From Gemmatimonadota bacterium (GTDB lineage Bacteria > Gemmatimonadota > Gemmatimonadetes > Gemmatimonadales > Gemmatimonadaceae): a DNA stretch of 64,000 nt. The notes beneath the pieces were generated by a model. It had not been told where the DNA came from. It worked only from the letters and a program-made list of their open reading frames with translations, and did not search any database. The DNA lies in NCBI GenBank assembly GCA_023249375.1, contig JAHFCT010000009.1, positions 1 to 64,000 of the forward strand, written 5' to 3'. The translations under genes and the position numbers were made by a program. Shown here piece after piece: positions 13,517-55,667 of the stretch; the first letter of the stretch is position 1, and each line of letters begins with the position of its first letter.

Positions 13517-14483
13517 CCAATTCGGCCGCAGCATCGAGTACCTGCGCATCTCGGTCACGGACCGCTGCAACTTCCGCTGCATCTACTGCATGCCGGAGAG
13601 CGGCATCGCGTGGCTGCCGAAGCCGCAGATTCTCTCGTACGAAGAGATCACCGAGGTGGTGCGCCAGCTCGCGCCGCTTGGCCTGAAGCGGCTGCGCGTC
13701 ACCGGCGGCGAACCGACGGTGCGCCCCGAACTCGCGACGCTCATCGCCATGCTGCGCGGCGTGCCGGGCATCGAGGACATTGCGCTCTCCACCAACGGCG
13801 CCAAGCTCCCGCAGATGGCCGCGGCCTTGCGCGCCGCCGGCTTGGACCGCGTGAACATGAGCTCCGACTCGCTGCGTCCCGAGCGCATTGCGGCTATCGC
13901 GCGCCGAAACCTCGGCTTCGATCCGGTGGCGGCGGCGCTCGCGGCGGAAGCGGCCGGCCTTGACCCGATCAAGCTCAACGTCGTGGTGATTCGTGGCGTG
14001 AATGATGACGAAGTGGAGGACTTCGCCGCGCTCACGGTCGATCATGCGTGGCACGTGCGCTTCATTGAGTTGATGCCGGTGGGCGATCTCGCCGGCACGG
14101 AGTTCGAGCGCGTCGTGCCGAGCGACGAAGTACTGGCCCGTGTGGCGGCGCGCTTCGGCGCGCTCGACGCGAACGACGGACCGGCGCGTGGCAACGGGCC
14201 CGCCCGCTACCAGCGCATTCCGGGCGCACTGGGGAGCATCGGCGTGATCACGCCGCTCTCGCACACCTACTGCGATTCGTGCAACCGTGTGCGGCTGACG
14301 GCCGACGGACGGCTGCGCACGTGTCTGTACGGCGATCACGAGGTCAACCTGCGTGACGCGCTGCGCGCCGGCGAACCGATGGCGCCGCTGTTCGAGCAGG
14401 CGCTCGCCAACAAGCCGCGCGAGCACGAGCTGCTCAAGCTCCGCGTGGGCGGATTGAAAGCGTTGAGCGAAGTGGGCGGGTAG
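13509..14483 (+). CDS. moaA: GTP 3',8-cyclase MoaA
   Basis: 324-aa radical SAM enzyme starting molybdenum cofactor synthesis. The SAM cluster motif is C20-X3-C24-X2-C27; the second C-terminal cluster motif is CDSC-X13-C (CX2CX13C). The chain ends in Gly-Gly, as needed in MoaA. ATG 13509 lies inside the end of moaE; an earlier start in the same frame would be a moaE shadow. With moaDE this gives a compact moaDEA operon; moaB, moaC and moeA are not in the window. Confidence 0.95.
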
Positions 14484-14617
14484 GGGAATCCATCTGTTCG
14501 CGTAGGGCAATCGGAGCAGCTGTTGCGGGAGTATTCGCGTTTACATCTTCGCGCACGAGCCGTAACTTTCCGCCGATCCGGCTGCATCGTTTCGTTCTCT
14601 TTCTCCCTGCTATCCAT

Positions 14618-15547
14618 ATGGTCAACAAGATTACCGTGGTCGGGGCCGGCAACGTCGGCGCCACGACCGCCCAGCGCATCGCCGAGAAGGAATTGGCCCG
14701 CGTCGTCGTGATGGTGGACATCGCCGACGGCATTCCGCAGGGAAAGGGACTCGACCAGTGGGAGTCGGCGCCGATCGAGCTGTTTGACTCGCGCGTCATC
14801 GGCACCACGGGGTACGAGGAGACGGCGGGCTCGGATGTCGTCGTCATCACTGCCGGCATCGCCCGCAAGCCCGGCATGTCGCGCGACGACTTGCTCAACA
14901 CCAATGCCGGTATCGTGAAGTCGTGCGCCGAGCAGATCAAGGCGACGTCGCCCAACGCGATCGTCATCGTCGTGTCGAATCCGCTCGACGTGATGTGCTA
15001 CGTGGCGAAGGAAGTGACCGGCTTCCCGCGCGAGCGTGTCATCGGTATGGCGGGCATTCTCGACACGGCGCGGTTCCGTTCGTTCCTCGCGATGGCGCTC
15101 GACGTGTCGGTGCGCGACATCCAGGCGATGGTGCTCGGCGGCCATGGCGACACGATGGTGCCGCTCATCAGCTACACGTCGATCAGCGGCATTCCGATTA
15201 CGCAGTTCATGACGAAGGACGAACTCCAGGTGCACGTGGACCGCGCTCGCAACGGCGGCGCCGAGATCGTGAAGTTGCTCAAGACCGGTTCGGCGTACTA
15301 CGCGCCATCCTCCGGCGCCGTGCAGATGGTCGAAGCGATCGTCAACGACCAGAAGCGCATCCTTCCGTGCTCGGCCTGGCTCGACGGCGAATACGGCATG
15401 AAGGGGCTCTTCCTCGGCGTGCCCTGCAAGCTGGGGCGCAACGGTCTCGAGAAGATCGTCGAGATCGCGCTCACCGATGACGAGAAAGCAGCGCTGGCGA
15501 AGAGCGCCGATGCGGTGCGCGAGCCGATGAGCGTGGTGAAGCTGTAA
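14618..15547 (+). CDS. mdh: Malate dehydrogenase (LDH-like)
   Basis: 309-aa NAD-dependent TCA enzyme. Rossmann motif [13 protein letters not shown]-binding Asp in VDIADG, mobile-loop arginines in [10 protein letters not shown], and catalytic His in [10 protein letters not shown]. The 134-bp spacer before it holds no recognisable promoter or RNA gene. A strong hairpin follows the stop. Confidence 0.95.
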
Positions 15548-15557
15548 GCAGGACGGG

Positions 15558-15582
15558 CGGGGCCGGCACAGCGCCGGCCCCG
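15558..15582 (+). terminator. Terminator hairpin after mdh
   Basis: CGGGGCCGGC (15558-15567) and CGGGGCCGGC read in reverse complement (15573-15582) form a perfect 10-bp stem with a 5-nt ACAGC loop, 11 nt after the stop. Only two T residues follow closely, so it may be an intrinsic terminator of the low-U kind. Confidence 0.7.
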
Positions 15583-15695
15583 TTCCGCATGTGGTGCGAC
15601 AACGAGAGCCGCGCGCACGAAGGATGCGCCGCACCGGACATCCCGATACGCCGTTGGCTCTTTCGTCTCTCGACTACCGACACTCGTCTAACTCC

Positions 15696-16352
15696 ATGCT
15701 CAAGTTCTGGAATTCTTCGGTCGGCAAAAAGGTGGTGATGGCGCTCACGGGGCTCGTCCTCGTGGGATTCGTCATTGGCCACATGGCCGGCAACCTGCAG
15801 ATCTTCGCGGGGCCGGAGCGCTACAATGCGTACGCGCGGCTCCTGCAGCACGACATCATCGAGCTGACGTGGGCGGTGCGCGTCGCGCTCTTCGTCTCCG
15901 TGGTGCTGCACGCGCTTTCGGCCTGGCAGCTGACGCGGCGCAGCTGGGCCGCGCGCCCGGTGGAGTACGCCATGCAGGAGGCGCAGGTGAGCACGTACGC
16001 CTCGCGGACGATGCGGTGGGGCGGCGTCTTCCTGTTCGTCTTCCTCATCCTGCACATCGGCCAGTTCACGCTCGGCTGGAAGTGGCTGCTGCCCGAGTAC
16101 GTGCCGGACGGCGCGTATGGCAATGTGGTGCTGGCCTTCGGGCGCCCGCTCTGGGTGGTCGTGTACCTCGTGGCGATGTTCTTCCTGATGCTGCACCTGC
16201 TGCACGGCACGTGGGCGGTGCTGCGCACGCTGGGTGTGGCGAAGAACGCCGCCGAGCCCCTGCAGCGGCAGCTGCCGCTGATCATCGCCGTTGTCGTGAC
16301 CGTGGGCTTCAGTCTTGTGCCGCTGGGCGTCGCGCTCGGCGTCGTGCGCTGA
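15696..16352 (+). CDS. sdhC: Succinate dehydrogenase/fumarate reductase cytochrome b subunit
   Basis: 218-aa membrane anchor of the b558 diheme type. About five hydrophobic helices are seen (near 13-33, 60-80, 105-125, 147-167, 190-212), with several His residues in or near them that could ligate two hemes. The start [19 protein letters not shown] is typical. It is the sole anchor, as expected for type B complexes that use menaquinone. sdhA follows after 13 bp. Confidence 0.88.
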
Positions 16353-48169: not shown

Positions 48170-49414
48170 ATGAAGCGCCGGGTCGTCGTCACCGGTCTCG
48201 GATGCGTTACCCCCGTCGGTCTTGACGTGGGATCGTCTTGGCAGGCGCTCCTCGACGGCAAGTCGGGAGGCGCCGCCATTACGCACTTCGACGCCGCGCA
48301 CCACAAGGTGCGGTTCGCGTGCGAGGTGAAGGGTTACGATCCGGCGCTGTACATGGACCGCAAGGAGATCAAGCGGTCCGATTTCTACACGCAGTACGCC
48401 ATGGGCGCGGCCGTGCAGGCCATGGCCGATGCGGGGCTGTCGGGCGGACAGGGCTATGACCCGCTGCGCACGGGCGTCGTCATCGGCAGCGGCATTGGCG
48501 GCATCAACACGTTTGAGGAGCAGCATAAGGTGCTGCTGGCGTCGGGGCCGGGGCGCATCTCCCCGTTCTTCATCCCGATGTTCATCAGCGACATTGCGTC
48601 GGGCGTCGTCTCGATGCGCTTTGGCGCCAAGGGGCCGAACTTCAGCACCGTGTCGGCCTGCGCGTCGTCTGGTCACGCGATCGGCATGTCGTTCCGCGCC
48701 ATTCAGTACGGCGACGCAGACGTCATGATCACGGGTGGAGCCGAGGCGTCGGTGACGCCAATGTCGATGGCGGGCTTTGCGAACATGCAGGCGCTTTCCA
48801 CGCGCAACGAGGAGCCGGCGCGCGCGTCGCGGCCGTTCGACGTCACGCGCGACGGGTTCGTGCTCGGCGAGGGCAGCGGTGTCGTGATTCTCGAGGAGTT
48901 GGAGCACGCCCGCCGCCGCGGTGCGCGCATTTACGGCGAGTTGGCCGGCTTCGGGATGACCGGAGACGCGTACCACCTCACCGGACAGCCCGAAAATCAC
49001 GAGGGCCTGCAGCGCGCGATGCGCGGTGCGCTCAATGATGCCGGCCTTTCGGTGGCGGAGCTGCACTACGTCAATGCGCACGGCACGTCGACGCCGCTGA
49101 ATGACTCCAACGAGATCCGCGCCATCAAGGCGGTCTTCGGCTCGCACGCGTCGGCGGTCAACGTGAGCTCCACCAAGTCGAGTACCGGGCACATGCTGGG
49201 CGCGGCAGCCGCGGTGGAGACCATTTTCACGACGCTGGCCATTCACCACGGCATTGTCCCGCCGACCATCAACCTGCAGTCGCCCGACCCTGAGTGCGAC
49301 CTCGACTGCACGGCGAACGTGCCGGTGAAGCGCACGGTGAGCGCCGCGCTCAACAACTCATCCGGTTTCGGCGGGCACAACACTTCGCTCGCGCTCGTCC
49401 GGTTCCGGGACTGA
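48170..49414 (+). CDS. fabF: Beta-ketoacyl-ACP synthase II
   Basis: 414-aa elongating condensing enzyme. Nucleophile C164 in VSACASSGHAIG, catalytic His residues in NAHGTSTPLND and KSSTGHMLGAA. Ends 4 bp before mqnE, linking lipid and menaquinone genes in one transcript. Confidence 0.97.
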   Translation: MKRRVVVTGLGCVTPVGLDVGSSWQALLDGKSGGAAITHFDAAHHKVRFACEVKGYDPALYMDRKEIKRSDFYTQYAMGAAVQAMADAGLSGGQGYDPLRTGVVIGSGIGGINTFEEQHKVLLASGPGRISPFFIPMFISDIASGVVSMRFGAKGPNFSTVSACASSGHAIGMSFRAIQYGDADVMITGGAEASVTPMSMAGFANMQALSTRNEEPARASRPFDVTRDGFVLGEGSGVVILEELEHARRRGARIYGELAGFGMTGDAYHLTGQPENHEGLQRAMRGALNDAGLSVAELHYVNAHGTSTPLNDSNEIRAIKAVFGSHASAVNVSSTKSSTGHMLGAAAAVETIFTTLAIHHGIVPPTINLQSPDPECDLDCTANVPVKRTVSAALNNSSGFGGHNTSLALVRFRD

Positions 49415-49418
49415 GCGG

Positions 49419-50588
49419 ATGGCCGCGGCACCGCAGGTTCCGTTTGACCGCATCCATGATCCGGTGCTTCGCCGCCTCGGCGAACAGGTCGCGGCCGGCA
49501 ATCGGCTGACCGCCGCCGACGGGCTCGCGCTGTACCGCAGCGCCGACCTCACGGGACTTGGCGTGCTGGCCGACGCCGTGAATCGCGCGAAGAATGGCGA
49601 CGTGGTGACGTTCGCGTCGAACCAGCACATCAATCCGACGAACATCTGCGTCCTGCGAAAGACCTGCGTCTTCTGCGGCTACGCACGACTGCCCAAGGAA
49701 GAAGGCGCGTACCGATACACCCTCGACCAGGTGCTCGGCGAGGCGGCGCACGCCGCCGACGGAATGACGCGCGAGTTCCACATCGTCGGCGGCCTCGACA
49801 TGAAGGCGGGGCTGGCCTACTACGAGGAGATGTTTCGCGCGCTCAAGGCCAACTTCCCGCACGTCCACATCAAGGGGCTGACGGCGGTCGAGATTGCGCA
49901 CATCGCGCGCATCGAGAAGATGTCCTGGCACGACGTGCTGGTAGCGCTCAAGGCGGCCGGGCTCGACACGATGCCGGGCGGCGGCGCCGAGACGTTCAGC
50001 GCCGCGGTGCGCGACCGCATCGCGGACAAGAAGCTCGCCGGCGCTGAGTACATTGGCGTGCACCGCACCGCGCACGAACTCGGCATTCGCACCAATTGCA
50101 CGATGCTGTACGGGCACGTCGAGACGCTCGAGGATCGGATGGAGCACTTGCAGGCGCTGCGCGACTTGCAGGACGAGACGGGCGGTTTCCTCGCATACAT
50201 TCCGCTCGCGTATCACCCCGATGACAACGAACTAGGCAAGGAACTCGGCCGCCAGGGGACCGCGACGACGGGATGGGATGACCTGCGCCAGCTCGCCGTC
50301 GGGCGGCTCTTCCTCGACAACTTCCAGCACGTGAAGTCGCACTGGATCATGGTCACGCCGTTCCTCTCCCAGGTGGCGCTGCACTACGGCGTCAACGACC
50401 TCGAGGGGACGGTGGTGCGCGAGAAGATCTATCATGCGGTCGGTGCGCACACCCCTCAGGGCATGTCGCTCGCCGCGCTGCTCACGCTCATTCGCGGCGC
50501 GGGCAAGGTGCCGGCGGAGCGCGATTCGTTCTATCGCATCCTGCGCACGAGCTTCGACGCGGAGCCGGTCGCCGCCGGAGTCGCCTGA
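49419..50588 (+). CDS. mqnE: Aminofutalosine synthase MqnE
   Basis: 389-aa radical SAM enzyme joining the MqnA product to SAM to give aminofutalosine in menaquinone synthesis. Family segments are NQHINPTNIC, FHIVGGLD, KGLTAVEI, DTMPGGGAETF and YIPLAYHPDDN. The cluster motif reads C77-X5-C83-X2-C86, two residues longer between the first cysteines than the usual CX3CX2C. Placement beside mqnA and mqnC supports the assignment. Confidence 0.93.
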   Translation: MAAAPQVPFDRIHDPVLRRLGEQVAAGNRLTAADGLALYRSADLTGLGVLADAVNRAKNGDVVTFASNQHINPTNICVLRKTCVFCGYARLPKEEGAYRYTLDQVLGEAAHAADGMTREFHIVGGLDMKAGLAYYEEMFRALKANFPHVHIKGLTAVEIAHIARIEKMSWHDVLVALKAAGLDTMPGGGAETFSAAVRDRIADKKLAGAEYIGVHRTAHELGIRTNCTMLYGHVETLEDRMEHLQALRDLQDETGGFLAYIPLAYHPDDNELGKELGRQGTATTGWDDLRQLAVGRLFLDNFQHVKSHWIMVTPFLSQVALHYGVNDLEGTVVREKIYHAVGAHTPQGMSLAALLTLIRGAGKVPAERDSFYRILRTSFDAEPVAAGVA

Positions 50589-51433
50589 TGCGCGTCGGCC
50601 GCATTCCGTATCTCAACTGCGCCCCGGTGTACGGCGCCGTCGACCGCGGCATCGTCTCGCTCGACGCCGAGCTGGTGAGCGGCGTGCCGTCCGTGCTGAA
50701 TCGGGGGATCGCCGAGGGAACGATTGACGTGTCGGTGGTGTCGGCCGTCGAGTATGCGCGCGAGGCGGGCAAGTATCTGTTGCTGCCCGATCTCGCCATC
50801 TCGTGCGACGGCCCCGTGCGCAGCGTCATGCTGTTCTCGACGCGTCCGGCGCATGAACTGGGTGGCGCGCAGGTGCTGGTGACGCGCAGTTCGATGACCT
50901 CGGTGGCACTGCTCGACCTGCTGTTTGAGCACGTGTGGAAGGCGGCTCCGGTGTTCGTCCCAGGCGACGCCGAGGCCGACGATCTGCGGCGCGACCAATC
51001 ACCGGTGGCGGCGCGGCTCGTCATTGGGGACGCGGCGCTCATGCTGCGTCACCGCGAGCACCCGGTGGCGGCGGCGCACGGGCGCGAGTACCCGTACCTC
51101 TACGATCTCGGCGCGGAGTGGAAGCGCTGGACGGGACTGCCGTTTGTCTTTGCGGTCTGGGTGGCGCGCCGCGAAGTGAATGCACGGCAGGCGCTGCAGG
51201 TGCATGGCGCGCTGATGGAGAGCCGCAACTGGGGGCTCGCCAATCTGGCGCGGATCGCGGCGGAGGCCTCGGGAGTGTGCCAACTGCCGGCGGCGGTCGT
51301 GCACGAATATCTCGCCGGCCTCGACTATGGACTTGGGCTTGAGTACCTGGAAGGACTCTCCGAGTTCTTCCGGCGGCTCGAGCTTGCGGGAAAGGTGCCG
51401 CAGGGCAAGCTCGTCTTCCTGCCGGCAGCGTGA
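50588..51433 (+). CDS. mqnA: Chorismate dehydratase MqnA
   Basis: 281-aa periplasmic-binding-protein-like enzyme making 3-enolpyruvyl-benzoate from chorismate, the first futalosine-route step. RIPYLNCAPVY near the start and the VSVVSAVEYAR, LLDLLFEH and GDAALMLRH regions fit. Overlaps mqnE as TGATG. Confidence 0.92.
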   Translation: MRVGRIPYLNCAPVYGAVDRGIVSLDAELVSGVPSVLNRGIAEGTIDVSVVSAVEYAREAGKYLLLPDLAISCDGPVRSVMLFSTRPAHELGGAQVLVTRSSMTSVALLDLLFEHVWKAAPVFVPGDAEADDLRRDQSPVAARLVIGDAALMLRHREHPVAAAHGREYPYLYDLGAEWKRWTGLPFVFAVWVARREVNARQALQVHGALMESRNWGLANLARIAAEASGVCQLPAAVVHEYLAGLDYGLGLEYLEGLSEFFRRLELAGKVPQGKLVFLPAA

Positions 51434-51457
51434 CAATGAAAGAGCGGGCGGTCCGCG

Positions 51458-52534
51458 GTGGACTGGCCCGGTGCGGCCCCCATTTTTCGCGACGCCGACA
51501 TGTCTGAACTTCAAAATCTCCTCGACCTGTACCAGCACGCGCCGCTCCTCGAGTTGGGTGCGCTCGCCGATGAACGGCGCCGCGCGCTGCATCCCGAGGG
51601 CGTGGTCACCTACATCGTCGACCGCAACATCAACTACACCAACGTCTGCGTGGCCGACTGCGGATTCTGCGCCTTCTATCGGCGCCCGAAGCACGGCGAA
51701 GGGTACACGCTGTCTTACGAACAGATCGGCGAGAAGATCGAGGAAACGAAGGCGCTCGGCGGCATCCAGATCCTGATCCAGGGCGGCCACAATCCGTACA
51801 TCCCGTTCGAGTGGTATCTGGAGCTCATCAAGTACATCAAGCGCCATCATCCCATTCATGTGCACGGCTTCTCGCCCAGCGAGGTGGATTTTTGGTCGAC
51901 GCTTTATCGAATGGATGCGCGCGAGGTGGTGCGTCAGCTGATCGCGGCGGGCCTCGATTCGATTCCGGGAGGCGGCGGCGAGATTCTCGTGCAGCGGGTG
52001 CGCGACATCGTTGCCCCCAAGAAGGCCGGCGCCGACCGCTGGCTGGAGATCATGGAGATCGCGCACCAGGAAGGGCTCAAGACGTCGTCGACGATGATGT
52101 TCGGCATTGGCGAGACGCTGGAGGAGCGCATGGAGCATCTCGTGCGCCTGCGTGACGTACAGGCGCGCACGGGGGGGTTCACCGCGTTCATCACGTGGCC
52201 GCTCCAGCCGGAGAACACGCCGACGCTCAGCCATCAGCCAAAGACCGACGCCGTGGAGTACCTTAGAACCGTGGCCTTTTCGCGGTTGGTCCTCGACAAC
52301 ATCCCCAACATCCAGGCCAGCTGGGTCACGATGGGCATGAAAGTGGGGCAGATCGCACTGTCGTATGGCTGCAATGACTTTGGATCGCTGATGATCGAGG
52401 AGAATGTGGTTTCGGCAGCAAACACCACGTACAGCACGACCACCGATGAGATCGAGCGGCTCATCACCGACGCCGGCTTCACGCCACGGCGCCGGCGGCA
52501 GGACTATCAGCTCATCGCGTCCGCCGCCGCATAG
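51458..52534 (+). CDS. mqnC: Cyclic dehypoxanthine futalosine synthase MqnC
   Basis: 358-aa radical SAM enzyme forming the spiro intermediate of menaquinone synthesis. The motif C64-X3-C68-X2-C71 lies in NVCVADCGFCAF; IQGGHNPYIPFEWY, HGFSPSEVDFW and GLDSIPGGGGEI are MqnC-like. GTG 51458 has an AAAGAG upstream; ATG 51500 would shorten the protein by 14 residues. MqnB and MqnD are not in the window. Confidence 0.93.
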   Translation: MDWPGAAPIFRDADMSELQNLLDLYQHAPLLELGALADERRRALHPEGVVTYIVDRNINYTNVCVADCGFCAFYRRPKHGEGYTLSYEQIGEKIEETKALGGIQILIQGGHNPYIPFEWYLELIKYIKRHHPIHVHGFSPSEVDFWSTLYRMDAREVVRQLIAAGLDSIPGGGGEILVQRVRDIVAPKKAGADRWLEIMEIAHQEGLKTSSTMMFGIGETLEERMEHLVRLRDVQARTGGFTAFITWPLQPENTPTLSHQPKTDAVEYLRTVAFSRLVLDNIPNIQASWVTMGMKVGQIALSYGCNDFGSLMIEENVVSAANTTYSTTTDEIERLITDAGFTPRRRRQDYQLIASAAA

Positions 52535-52548
52535 GAGGCAAGCGCTTC

Positions 52549-53499
52549 ATGGGTGTCCGGTTCGGATCAGGAGCACGCAAGGCCATCGATGCCGCGATGG
52601 TGGAATCCGAGCGTCACGGACTCGACCTGCCCAACTCGCTGCACCTGCTGCTGGGGATGCTGAAGACGCCCCGCGGCACGGCGGCGCAGATGTCCGCCAT
52701 GCTCGGCATGCCCGTGGAGCTGTTGGTGCGCGCCGTGGAATCGCGTTTGTCGGGGGCGGGCGCCATCGCGATGGCGGAGAGCGAGGATGCCGCCGAGGCC
52801 ATCCTGCGCGCGGCGGGAGAAGAGGCGGAGCGTCGCGGCGGTGGCGTCGTCACTGAGGGGGACATTCTGCGCGCGATGGGGCACAGCCCTGCCAGCGGCG
52901 CCGGTCGCGTACTGCAGGAGGCCGGTGTGACGCCTGCCCGACTAGACGAGCTTCCGCTCGACACCAGCGCCGACACGTCGACCGCGGCGCCGACTCGATT
53001 CACCGTCCGCGTGCGCACGGGTATCGGCTACGACTCGCACCGGTTTGCGCCGGGTGACGGAATTGTGCTTGGCGGCGTGCTCATTCCGTCGTCGCAGAAA
53101 CTGGTCGGGCACAGCGACGGCGACGCGGTGGCGCATGCGGTCACGGACGCGATTCTCGGCGGTGCAGGCGTTGGCGACATCGGAGAGATGTTCTCCGACA
53201 CCGACGCGCTGAACAAGGGGCGCGATTCCATCGAGATGCTGCATCTGGCGGTGGAGCGCGTACGCCTAGCCGGATGGACGCCCAAGCAAATCGATGTCAC
53301 GGTCATCGCCGAGGCGCCGAAAATTGGGCCGTACCGCGGGTCGATGCGCGAACGGCTGGCGCACGCGCTGGGCCTTCACGTGGCTGATGTCATGGTGAAG
53401 GGAAAGACCAACGAAGGCATGGGCTGGATCGGGCGCGGCGAAGGCATCGCGGCCATCGCGGTGGCGACGCTCAACTCCTTCGAGGTCGAGCACCGGTGA
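52549..53499 (+). CDS. ispF: Clp N-terminal domain fused to 2-C-methyl-D-erythritol 2,4-cyclodiphosphate synthase (IspF)
   Basis: 316 aa in one uninterrupted frame. Residues about 6-68 and 80-135 are two repeats of the ClpA/ClpC N-terminal (Clp_N) fold: ARKAIDAAMVESERHG, LHLLLGML, EEAERRGG, ILRAMGHS, GRVLQEAGV. Residues 136-154 are a Thr/Ala linker. Residues 155-316 are a whole IspF of normal length: metal ligands D162 and H164 in GYDSHRF, H196 in AHAVTDAIL, plus DVTVIAEAPKIGPY and KTNEGMGWIGRGEGI. IspF makes MEcPP in isoprenoid synthesis. A GTG at 53011 (residue 155) could start a free IspF but has no visible ribosome site. Confidence 0.93.
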   Translation: MGVRFGSGARKAIDAAMVESERHGLDLPNSLHLLLGMLKTPRGTAAQMSAMLGMPVELLVRAVESRLSGAGAIAMAESEDAAEAILRAAGEEAERRGGGVVTEGDILRAMGHSPASGAGRVLQEAGVTPARLDELPLDTSADTSTAAPTRFTVRVRTGIGYDSHRFAPGDGIVLGGVLIPSSQKLVGHSDGDAVAHAVTDAILGGAGVGDIGEMFSDTDALNKGRDSIEMLHLAVERVRLAGWTPKQIDVTVIAEAPKIGPYRGSMRERLAHALGLHVADVMVKGKTNEGMGWIGRGEGIAAIAVATLNSFEVEHR

Positions 53500-54119
53500 A
53501 CACCTTGATGGACTGGGTGGCCGCCCTTGACCTCTCCGCCCTGTACGCCCTGCTGGCTCTCACGGCGTTTATCGAGAGCATCTTTCCGCCCGCGCCCGCC
53601 GACGTGGTCGTGGCGCTCGGCGCATTTCTCGCGGCACGCCGCGGCGCGAGCTATCCGATGGTCGTTGCCTCCATCGTCAGCGGCAGCGCGATTGGCGCGA
53701 TGGTGATCTATGGCGCTGCGCGCCGGTTCGGCGCCGACTGGATGCACGCGCAGCTGCGTCGGCTGAAGCTCATCGGCGCGGAGGAAAAGCTGGAGCGCAT
53801 GTACGACCACTACGGCCTCGCCGCGCTCTTCGTCAGCCGGTTTGTTCCGGGCCTGCGCGCGGTGGTGCCCCCGATGGCCGGCGCCTTGCGCGTGCCGTGG
53901 TTGCGCACCGTGGTGGTGATCGCCTTCGCGAGCACACTGTGGTACGGCATTATCATCTGGATCTCGTTCCGCGTCGGCGACGACTGGGAACAGGTGCGCG
54001 CGACGCTGCACATCGTCGGACGGCGCGTCGGACTGACCGCCGTGGTGCTCATCGTGGCGCTCGCGTATGTGGGCCGCCGCCTGTGGCTTCGGCACCGCGC
54101 CAAGCATCCGCTGGCGTAG
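53496..54119 (+). CDS. DedA family membrane protein
   Basis: 207-aa polytopic inner-membrane protein. The signature ALFVSRFVPGLRAVVPPMAG sits at about 109-128 and EsIFPPAPADVV near 24-35. DedA proteins act in lipid transport and envelope homeostasis; flippase activity for some members is reported. GTG start overlaps the ispF stop by 4 nt. Confidence 0.88.
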   Translation: MNTLMDWVAALDLSALYALLALTAFIESIFPPAPADVVVALGAFLAARRGASYPMVVASIVSGSAIGAMVIYGAARRFGADWMHAQLRRLKLIGAEEKLERMYDHYGLAALFVSRFVPGLRAVVPPMAGALRVPWLRTVVVIAFASTLWYGIIIWISFRVGDDWEQVRATLHIVGRRVGLTAVVLIVALAYVGRRLWLRHRAKHPLA

Positions 54120-55030
54120 TGACCGACGCGGGCGATCCTCTCCGGCCATTTCTGCTCGAGCGATTCGCCGAGTTTCTGACGCTCGAGCAGGGCAGCTCTG
54201 CGCGCACGGACGAGAGCTACGCCCGCGACCTGCGGCGGCTCGCGGAGTGGAGCGCCGCGCACGGGGCGCCCGATCCGGCCGCGCTCAGTGCCACGCACCT
54301 GAGGGAGTACGTCTACTACCTCAAGGACCTGGGGCTGTCGCCGTCGTCGATTCGGCGCGGCGTGTCGGCCATGCATACGTGGTTCAAGTTCCTCATGGCC
54401 GAAGGCGTGGTGAAGGCGGATCCCAGCGAGCGACTGGAAACGCCGAAGAAATGGCGCACGCTCCCCGAAGTGCTGACGCCGGCCGAGGTGGAGAAGCTGC
54501 TCACGGCGATTCCGATTGACGAGCCGCTCGCCTTTCGCGATCGCGCGATGCTCGAACTCGCCTATGGGGCGGGTCTCCGCGTGGGCGAGTGGATCACCAT
54601 CAAGGTGAGCGACTTGATGCTCGACGCCGGCGTGGTCCGCGTCTTCGGCAAGGGCAGCAAGGAGCGGCTGGTCCCCGTGGGAGGAAGCGCGACGGGAGCG
54701 GTGGCGATCTACCTGCGCGAGCTGCGCCCTCGTTTGGAACGCGGCAAGGGCGCGGGCGTACTCTTCCTCAACGCGCGTGGTGCGCCGTTGAGCCGAATGG
54801 GCGCCTGGAAGATTCTTCGGAAGTACGTCACGCTGGCCGGCATCACCAAGCTCGTGACGCCGCACACGCTGCGCCACTCGTTCGCCACGCATCTGCTCGA
54901 AGGCGGCGCCGATCTGCGTTCCGTGCAGGAAATGCTGGGGCACGCCGACATCGGCACCACCCAGATCTACACCCACGTCGACCGCGAGTACCTGCGATCG
55001 GTGCACAAGCAGTTCCATCCCAGGGGATAG
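54119..55030 (+). CDS. xerD: Site-specific tyrosine recombinase XerC/XerD
   Basis: 303-aa recombinase that resolves chromosome dimers at dif. The full catalytic set is readable: R154, K178, H249, R252, H275, Y284. The SAM-like N-terminal domain spans about 8-95. XerD-like rather than phage integrase by the EMLGHADIGTTQIYTHV end. GTG start overlaps the dedA stop by one base. No dif-like site was found in the window. Confidence 0.92.
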   Translation: MTDAGDPLRPFLLERFAEFLTLEQGSSARTDESYARDLRRLAEWSAAHGAPDPAALSATHLREYVYYLKDLGLSPSSIRRGVSAMHTWFKFLMAEGVVKADPSERLETPKKWRTLPEVLTPAEVEKLLTAIPIDEPLAFRDRAMLELAYGAGLRVGEWITIKVSDLMLDAGVVRVFGKGSKERLVPVGGSATGAVAIYLRELRPRLERGKGAGVLFLNARGAPLSRMGAWKILRKYVTLAGITKLVTPHTLRHSFATHLLEGGADLRSVQEMLGHADIGTTQIYTHVDREYLRSVHKQFHPRG

Positions 55031-55073
55031 TGGGCTGGCGGCGCCGAACTCCGAAGGCGATTAGGTTCCGCTC

Positions 55074-55667
55074 GTGATCCTCGTCATCGACAACTACGAC
55101 TCCTTCACCTACAACCTCGTCCAGTATCTGGGCGAGATGGGTGAGACGCTGCGCGTCGAGCGCAACGACGCCATCGCCGTAGACGACGTCGCGGCCATCG
55201 CGCCCGCCGCCATTGTGCTGTCGCCCGGCCCGGGCACGCCGGCGGAGGCGGGCATTACCGTGCCGGTGATCACGCGCTACGGCGCACGAATCCCGATACT
55301 GGGCGTCTGTCTCGGCCACCAGGCAATTGGCGAGGCATACGGCGGGCATGTCATCAGGGCGCCGCGCGGCGTGATGCACGGCAAGACGTCGGACGTCCTG
55401 CACGACGGCACCGGGCTCTTTGACGGGCTGCCGTCTCCGCTGCGGGTGATGCGCTACCACTCGCTCGTTGTGGAGCACGGCACGCTGCCATCGTGCCTCG
55501 AGATCACCGCGCGGGCCGCGGATGACGCCACGGAGATCCACGCGTTGCGGCACCGCAGGGATCCCGTCTGGGGCGTCCAGTTTCATCCGGAGTCGATCCT
55601 CACGCAGGAAGGGAAGCGGATGCTCGCCAACTTCCTCCGGCTCGCGCGCGCGGGCGCGCCGTCGTGA
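55074..55667 (+). CDS. trpG: Anthranilate/aminodeoxychorismate synthase glutamine amidotransferase subunit
   Basis: 197-aa class I amidotransferase. It starts with IDNYDSFTYNLVQYLG, has the nucleophile C79 in GVCLGHQAIGE and the catalytic His/Glu in FHPESIL. No trpE or pabB is next to it, so it may serve tryptophan, folate or both. GTG start. Overlaps the next gene by 4 nt. Confidence 0.92.
   Translation: MILVIDNYDSFTYNLVQYLGEMGETLRVERNDAIAVDDVAAIAPAAIVLSPGPGTPAEAGITVPVITRYGARIPILGVCLGHQAIGEAYGGHVIRAPRGVMHGKTSDVLHDGTGLFDGLPSPLRVMRYHSLVVEHGTLPSCLEITARAADDATEIHALRHRRDPVWGVQFHPESILTQEGKRMLANFLRLARAGAPS

Follow-up and report, generated by a model that had tools for sequence, protein, structure and literature searches.

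A Clp_N-fold domain fused to the isoprenoid enzyme IspF in two genera of Gemmatimonadaceae

The window, a 64,000-nucleotide stretch of DNA from a member of the Gemmatimonadaceae, carries a gene in which a domain with the predicted fold of the Clp_N family precedes a complete 2-C-methyl-D-erythritol 2,4-cyclodiphosphate synthase (IspF). The Clp_N-IspF fusion gene spans positions 52549 to 53499 on the forward (+) strand, runs through 316 stop-free codons of a single frame (316 aa), has full-length homologues that bring the total to 13 genomes, and is the sole ispF found in its genome. An earlier note, made from the letters of the DNA, had described a Clp_N domain, a linker, and a complete IspF in one frame, and this arrangement was borne out by the open frame, Pfam, AlphaFold2, and Foldseek; above the Pfam cut-off, the 316 residues contain Clp_N and IspF only, and AAA+ ATPase domains are absent. 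Judged from sequence, the best explanation is that the product is a working IspF with a tethered Clp_N-fold module, a reading that, taken as a whole, we consider somewhat probable. No IspF-Clp_N protein is reported in the open-access literature searched, and as far as those papers show, the protein is a new architecture of two known families. The architecture is also conserved and under selection, and the enzyme that bears it belongs to a pathway that is usually essential.

The IspF domain (residues 156-308; 53014 to 53472, + strand) matched the Pfam YgbB/IspF profile (PF02542) with 189 bits over profile positions 2-154 of 155 and scored 177 bits against NCBIfam TIGR00151. The metal ligands previously read from the sequence, D162, H164, and H196, were invariant across 24 aligned IspF rows, which together with the whole-domain YgbB match upholds the completeness of the enzyme. 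The protein shares with the YgbB family the complete catalytic domain, the metal ligands, and other invariant residues, and its gene sits at the same place in the mqn operon as the plain ispF of the family, but the fusion protein bears the additional N-terminal module. The bifunctional IspDF enzyme (NF006899) likewise has an N-terminal partner fused to IspF, and the IspF part scored 204 bits against this model (positions 222-383), with a total far under the cut-off of 417; however, the partner in IspDF is the IspD enzyme, whereas in the window's protein it is a non-enzymatic Clp_N fold. The two domains are joined by a variable, disordered linker (residues ~136-151; 52954 to 53001, + strand), with pLDDT < 50 at residues 139-151 and dN/dS of about 0.7, and the full-length AlphaFold2 model (pTM 0.54) contained two domains with undefined relative placement.

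The N-terminal Clp_N-fold domain (residues 1-135; 52549 to 52953, + strand) was delineated by Pfam, AlphaFold2, Foldseek, VIA structural realignment, and purifying selection. The Pfam Clp_N profile (PF02861) matched residues 31-67 with 25.0 bits in the whole protein and 28.5 bits in the N-terminal part, above the cut-off of 20.7, giving the profile match, within repeat 1, that had been proposed as a check; the homologue L067 scored 23.3, and members of the second genus scored 15.7-18.4, slightly below the cut-off. ClpB was the only NCBIfam Clp model to match, weakly, over residues 9-133, and phmmer against the PDB recovered ClpC N-domains at E 3e-7. AlphaFold2 predicted two helical repeats (pLDDT 80, pTM 0.78; the remaining four models were less confident, 57.8-63.4), repeat 1 at residues 4-68 (52558 to 52752, + strand; helices 7-22, 30-39, 43-52, and 56-67) and repeat 2, seen by AlphaFold2 and VIA, at residues 77-133 (52777 to 52947, + strand; helices 81-95, 103-111, 117-124, and 129-133). 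Of the two Clp_N-like repeats claimed earlier, both are therefore present in the predicted fold, but only the first is detected by Pfam. Because the input alignment of the model held fusion proteins only, without ClpC or ClpB rows, the Clp fold was not imposed by hand. All 31 Foldseek rows against the PDB with E < 0.001 were ClpC/ClpB N-domains (best E 8e-5), and in the VIA realignment the best rows reached Z ~15-18 across 127-140 residues, above the level of about 13-14 quoted for chance helical matches. The predicted models show the N-terminal part with the full two-repeat fold of ClpC/ClpB N-domains.

A Shine-Dalgarno GGAGG, assigned from sequence, lies at 52534 to 52538 (+ strand), ten bases upstream of the ATG and overlapping the mqnC stop TAG (52532-52534). 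The congeners L066-L073 have GGAG or GAGG at a roughly equivalent place; in the second genus (g18), no GGAG/GAGG-like motif was visible before the start, and the ATG directly preceding a VRF motif is retained. Median dN/dS within the window's genus was ~0.12 for repeat 1, ~0.09 for repeat 2, ~0.11 for IspF, and ~0.68 for the linker, values that are rough, with synonymous sites near saturation. By these estimates, purifying selection acts on the Clp_N domain as strongly as on IspF while the linker drifts, a contrast that points to two selected domains joined by a drifting tether. A start at GTG 53011, from which IspF alone would be made and which the earlier note had set against the fusion, is ruled out in practice, since this codon, GTG in the window, is a non-start codon in four relatives (L066, L067, L068, and L071), purifying selection acts on the Clp_N part, and GGAG or GAGG precedes the ATG in the window and its congeners; on the same grounds, the N-terminal part is very likely translated. 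Plain ispF genes in these genomes can have long spurious open frames ahead of them, in keeping with an upstream frame that is open by chance in GC-rich DNA, but an artefact of this kind is barely credible for a frame with a conserved ATG and GGAG, no conserved start codon at 53011, purifying selection on its N-terminal part, a confidently predicted N-terminal fold, and a presence in 13 genomes.

The fusion was recovered from two of the 35 genera examined in the Gemmatimonadaceae (179 genomes) and from none of the other 33. Within the window's genus (g1), 10 of 11 species' genomes carry the full fusion, and the eleventh (G247) is truncated, its contig stopping 9 codons before the IspF match; in the second, distant genus, it is present in all three genomes. 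A sample of 395 phylum genomes yielded no additional fusion, and a scan of named records, with search patterns that closely resembled the window's protein, returned eight loci of the g1 type and two of the g18 type (L076 and L083), overlapping genomes already counted. The earlier expectation that a conserved fusion would point to function is thereby supported by its retention under selection in at least 13 species.

In trees, the Clp_N domains of the fusions formed their own group (SH-aLRT 98), provisionally placed between ClpB and ClpC, and the original label of a ClpA/ClpC-type domain was too specific, as the trees group the domain firmly with neither ClpC nor ClpB. The g1 and g18 domains are mutual nearest relatives (a query with the window's domain gave 42% identity at E 1e-16, against 37% at E 4e-8 for the next-best match) and form one clade with support of 100/100, or SH-aLRT 98 without long side rows, subject to a long-branch warning. 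The domain shares the two-repeat fold of the ClpC N-terminal domain (B. subtilis ClpC and M. tuberculosis ClpC1; Z ~14-18, ~19-28% identity) but is without AAA+ domains, has lost Glu32 and Glu106, and has Glu in place of Lys85. It has the same fold as the ClpB N-terminal domain (1khy, Z 17.3), which differs in belonging to a protein with AAA+ domains, and the trees do not place the domain firmly within ClpB. Clp_N folds without an AAA+ motor are also found in mycobacterial ClpC2 and plant ClpT1/ClpT2 (8b9o, 8ad9, 4y0b, and 4y0c), none of which, to our knowledge, is joined to a metabolic enzyme. ClpC2, a partial homologue of ClpC1, binds both cyclomarin A and DNA (PMC10030653).

The replacement of both phosphoarginine-binding glutamates, previously judged by eye, was confirmed by alignment to ClpC Glu32 and Glu106: Leu31 (52639 to 52641, + strand) is Leu in all aligned fusion proteins, and Gly104 (52858 to 52860, + strand) is Gly, Ser, or Ala in other fusions, with Leu and Ala at the two places in L076 of the second genus. 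A role as a phosphoarginine reader was rejected because these key residues are absent, and the Clp_N domain of the fusion is unlikely to read this mark. The cell itself probably uses phosphoarginine signalling, since the organism's own ClpC (contig C90) retains both glutamates and a McsB-type arginine kinase gene (contig C90 of genome G000, 14357-15744; L001 and L181) lies directly upstream of clpC. Residues common to both fused genera, in ClpC positions, are Leu at 32, Glu at 85, Gly at 92, Glu at 96, and Asp at 107, and these shared derived residues point to one putative conserved surface, unlike that of ClpC. In ClpC1, the lysine at position 85 is contacted by cyclic peptides (PMC12583610), and one ClpC1 structure among the Foldseek matches (6ucr) carries changes at positions 92 and 96. 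Because the hydrophobic-groove and phosphoarginine residues of ClpC are mostly replaced, the case for protein binding rests on fold and selection rather than on a recognised site.

The predicted Clp_N fold and the purifying selection favour a protein-docking role with new specificity. The module would be tethered to the N-terminus of IspF via a flexible linker of ~15 residues, and because IspF is a trimer, three modules would be displayed per enzyme. Its binding surface would have been repurposed, with the phosphoarginine pockets of ClpC lost and conserved acidic positions gained in repeat 2, and by holding IspF to a protein partner, it may control the location, stability, or activity of the enzyme. 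That repurposed modules on the trimer dock IspF to a partner in this way is, in our estimation, a little likelier than the reverse. In other settings, Clp_N domains bind proteins and peptides, among them unfolded segments, adaptors, and substrates carrying phosphoarginine (PMC12583610).

Selection on the module could instead reflect folding or solubility. A passive tag that aids folding or solubility or acts as a spacer, captured by chance and kept since its removal would harm IspF folding, would agree with the plain IspF encoded in the same operon by most of the family; this is quite improbable, as selection equals that on the enzyme and specific residues are common to two distant genera, which exceeds the needs of a tag. 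A sensing role, in which the module would bind unfolded or hydrophobic segments and alter IspF activity so that MEcPP follows protein damage, draws on the groove of ClpB and Hsp104 N-domains, which binds unfolded proteins (PMC12583610), and on MEcPP, the IspF product, as a stress metabolite that builds up in stressed bacteria and plants (PMC11192765). It is very unlikely, however, given Gly and Glu at ClpC positions 92 and 96 of the fusion domain and a flexible linker.

Binding of ClpC, ClpB, or an adaptor to IspF through the module, with control of its turnover or refolding, would fit the fold common to Hsp100 N-domains and a genome that encodes a ClpB and a ClpC with adjoining McsB. The nearest published idea is also its precedent for a link between Clp proteins and the MEP pathway, namely that in plants ClpC1 and ClpB3 control the turnover or refolding of DXS, the enzyme with which the pathway begins (PMC4729485). 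The plant case, however, works by Hsp70/J20 delivery and not by a fused domain; in Clp machines, the domain belongs to the unfoldase rather than the client, the phosphoarginine glutamates are lost, and ClpS, once suggested as a partner, is an unlikely one, as it was not found in this 96% complete genome. Such a tie to the Clp system is rather unlikely, and a coupling of IspF to protein quality control by the docking module, by which IspF level or MEcPP output would follow proteome stress, is similarly doubtful. If the module does dock to the Clp system, it would tie isoprenoid synthesis directly to protein quality control in a bacterium by means built into the enzyme, a connection so far known to us from plastids alone, where DXS is the enzyme affected.

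The fusion gene belongs to an operon of fabF, mqnE, mqnA, mqnC, ispF, dedA-like, xerD-like, and pabA/trpG genes, all of the same orientation (48170-55667). The order fabF-mqnE-mqnA-mqnC-ispF-dedA-xerD-pabA is common to nearly all Gemmatimonadaceae loci compared, with ispF placed among futalosine-type menaquinone genes across the family, and the mqnC-ispF distance is ~0-170 bases in nearly all plain loci and ~477 or 565 in fused loci. Since the order is the same and the distance wider in fused loci, the Clp_N domain is, on gene order and spacing, an addition made in place. An intermediate stage with Clp_N encoded by its own gene ahead of plain ispF was rejected, as the spaces that separate mqnC from plain ispF contain no Clp_N frame; apparent matches in plain loci, to residues 86-150 or 113-150 of the query, seem to be upstream mqnC read out of frame. 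Two plain loci, L106 and L112, have 419 bases between mqnC and ispF that are not Clp_N by profile. The neighbouring genes set g1 and g18 far apart and reject a single clade of fused loci (AU p 3.5e-58), as IspF itself does more weakly (p 0.029), and the history was either an early fusion lost many times or a transfer of the domain between lineages. Two contigs labelled Candidatus Kuenenia (L114) and Acidimicrobiaceae (L135) have a typical Gemmatimonadaceae ispF neighbourhood and are probably mislabelled or mixed bins.

Clp_N behaves as a portable module in Gemmatimonadota, of which the IspF fusion is one case, since related members of the phylum also carry it on a transporter, a cation exchanger, and on regulators of the GntR type. 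The exchanger fusions, of Na_Ca_ex (sodium/calcium exchanger) type (L042, 572 aa, and L187, 597 aa), occur in two genomes of the same taxonomic order and retain both glutamates of the EH motifs, and in the two fusions to a GntR-type DNA-binding domain, the glutamates are kept in L058 but not in L045. Short stand-alone Clp_N proteins are encoded in other Gemmatimonadota as well (L043, L051, L062, and L169).
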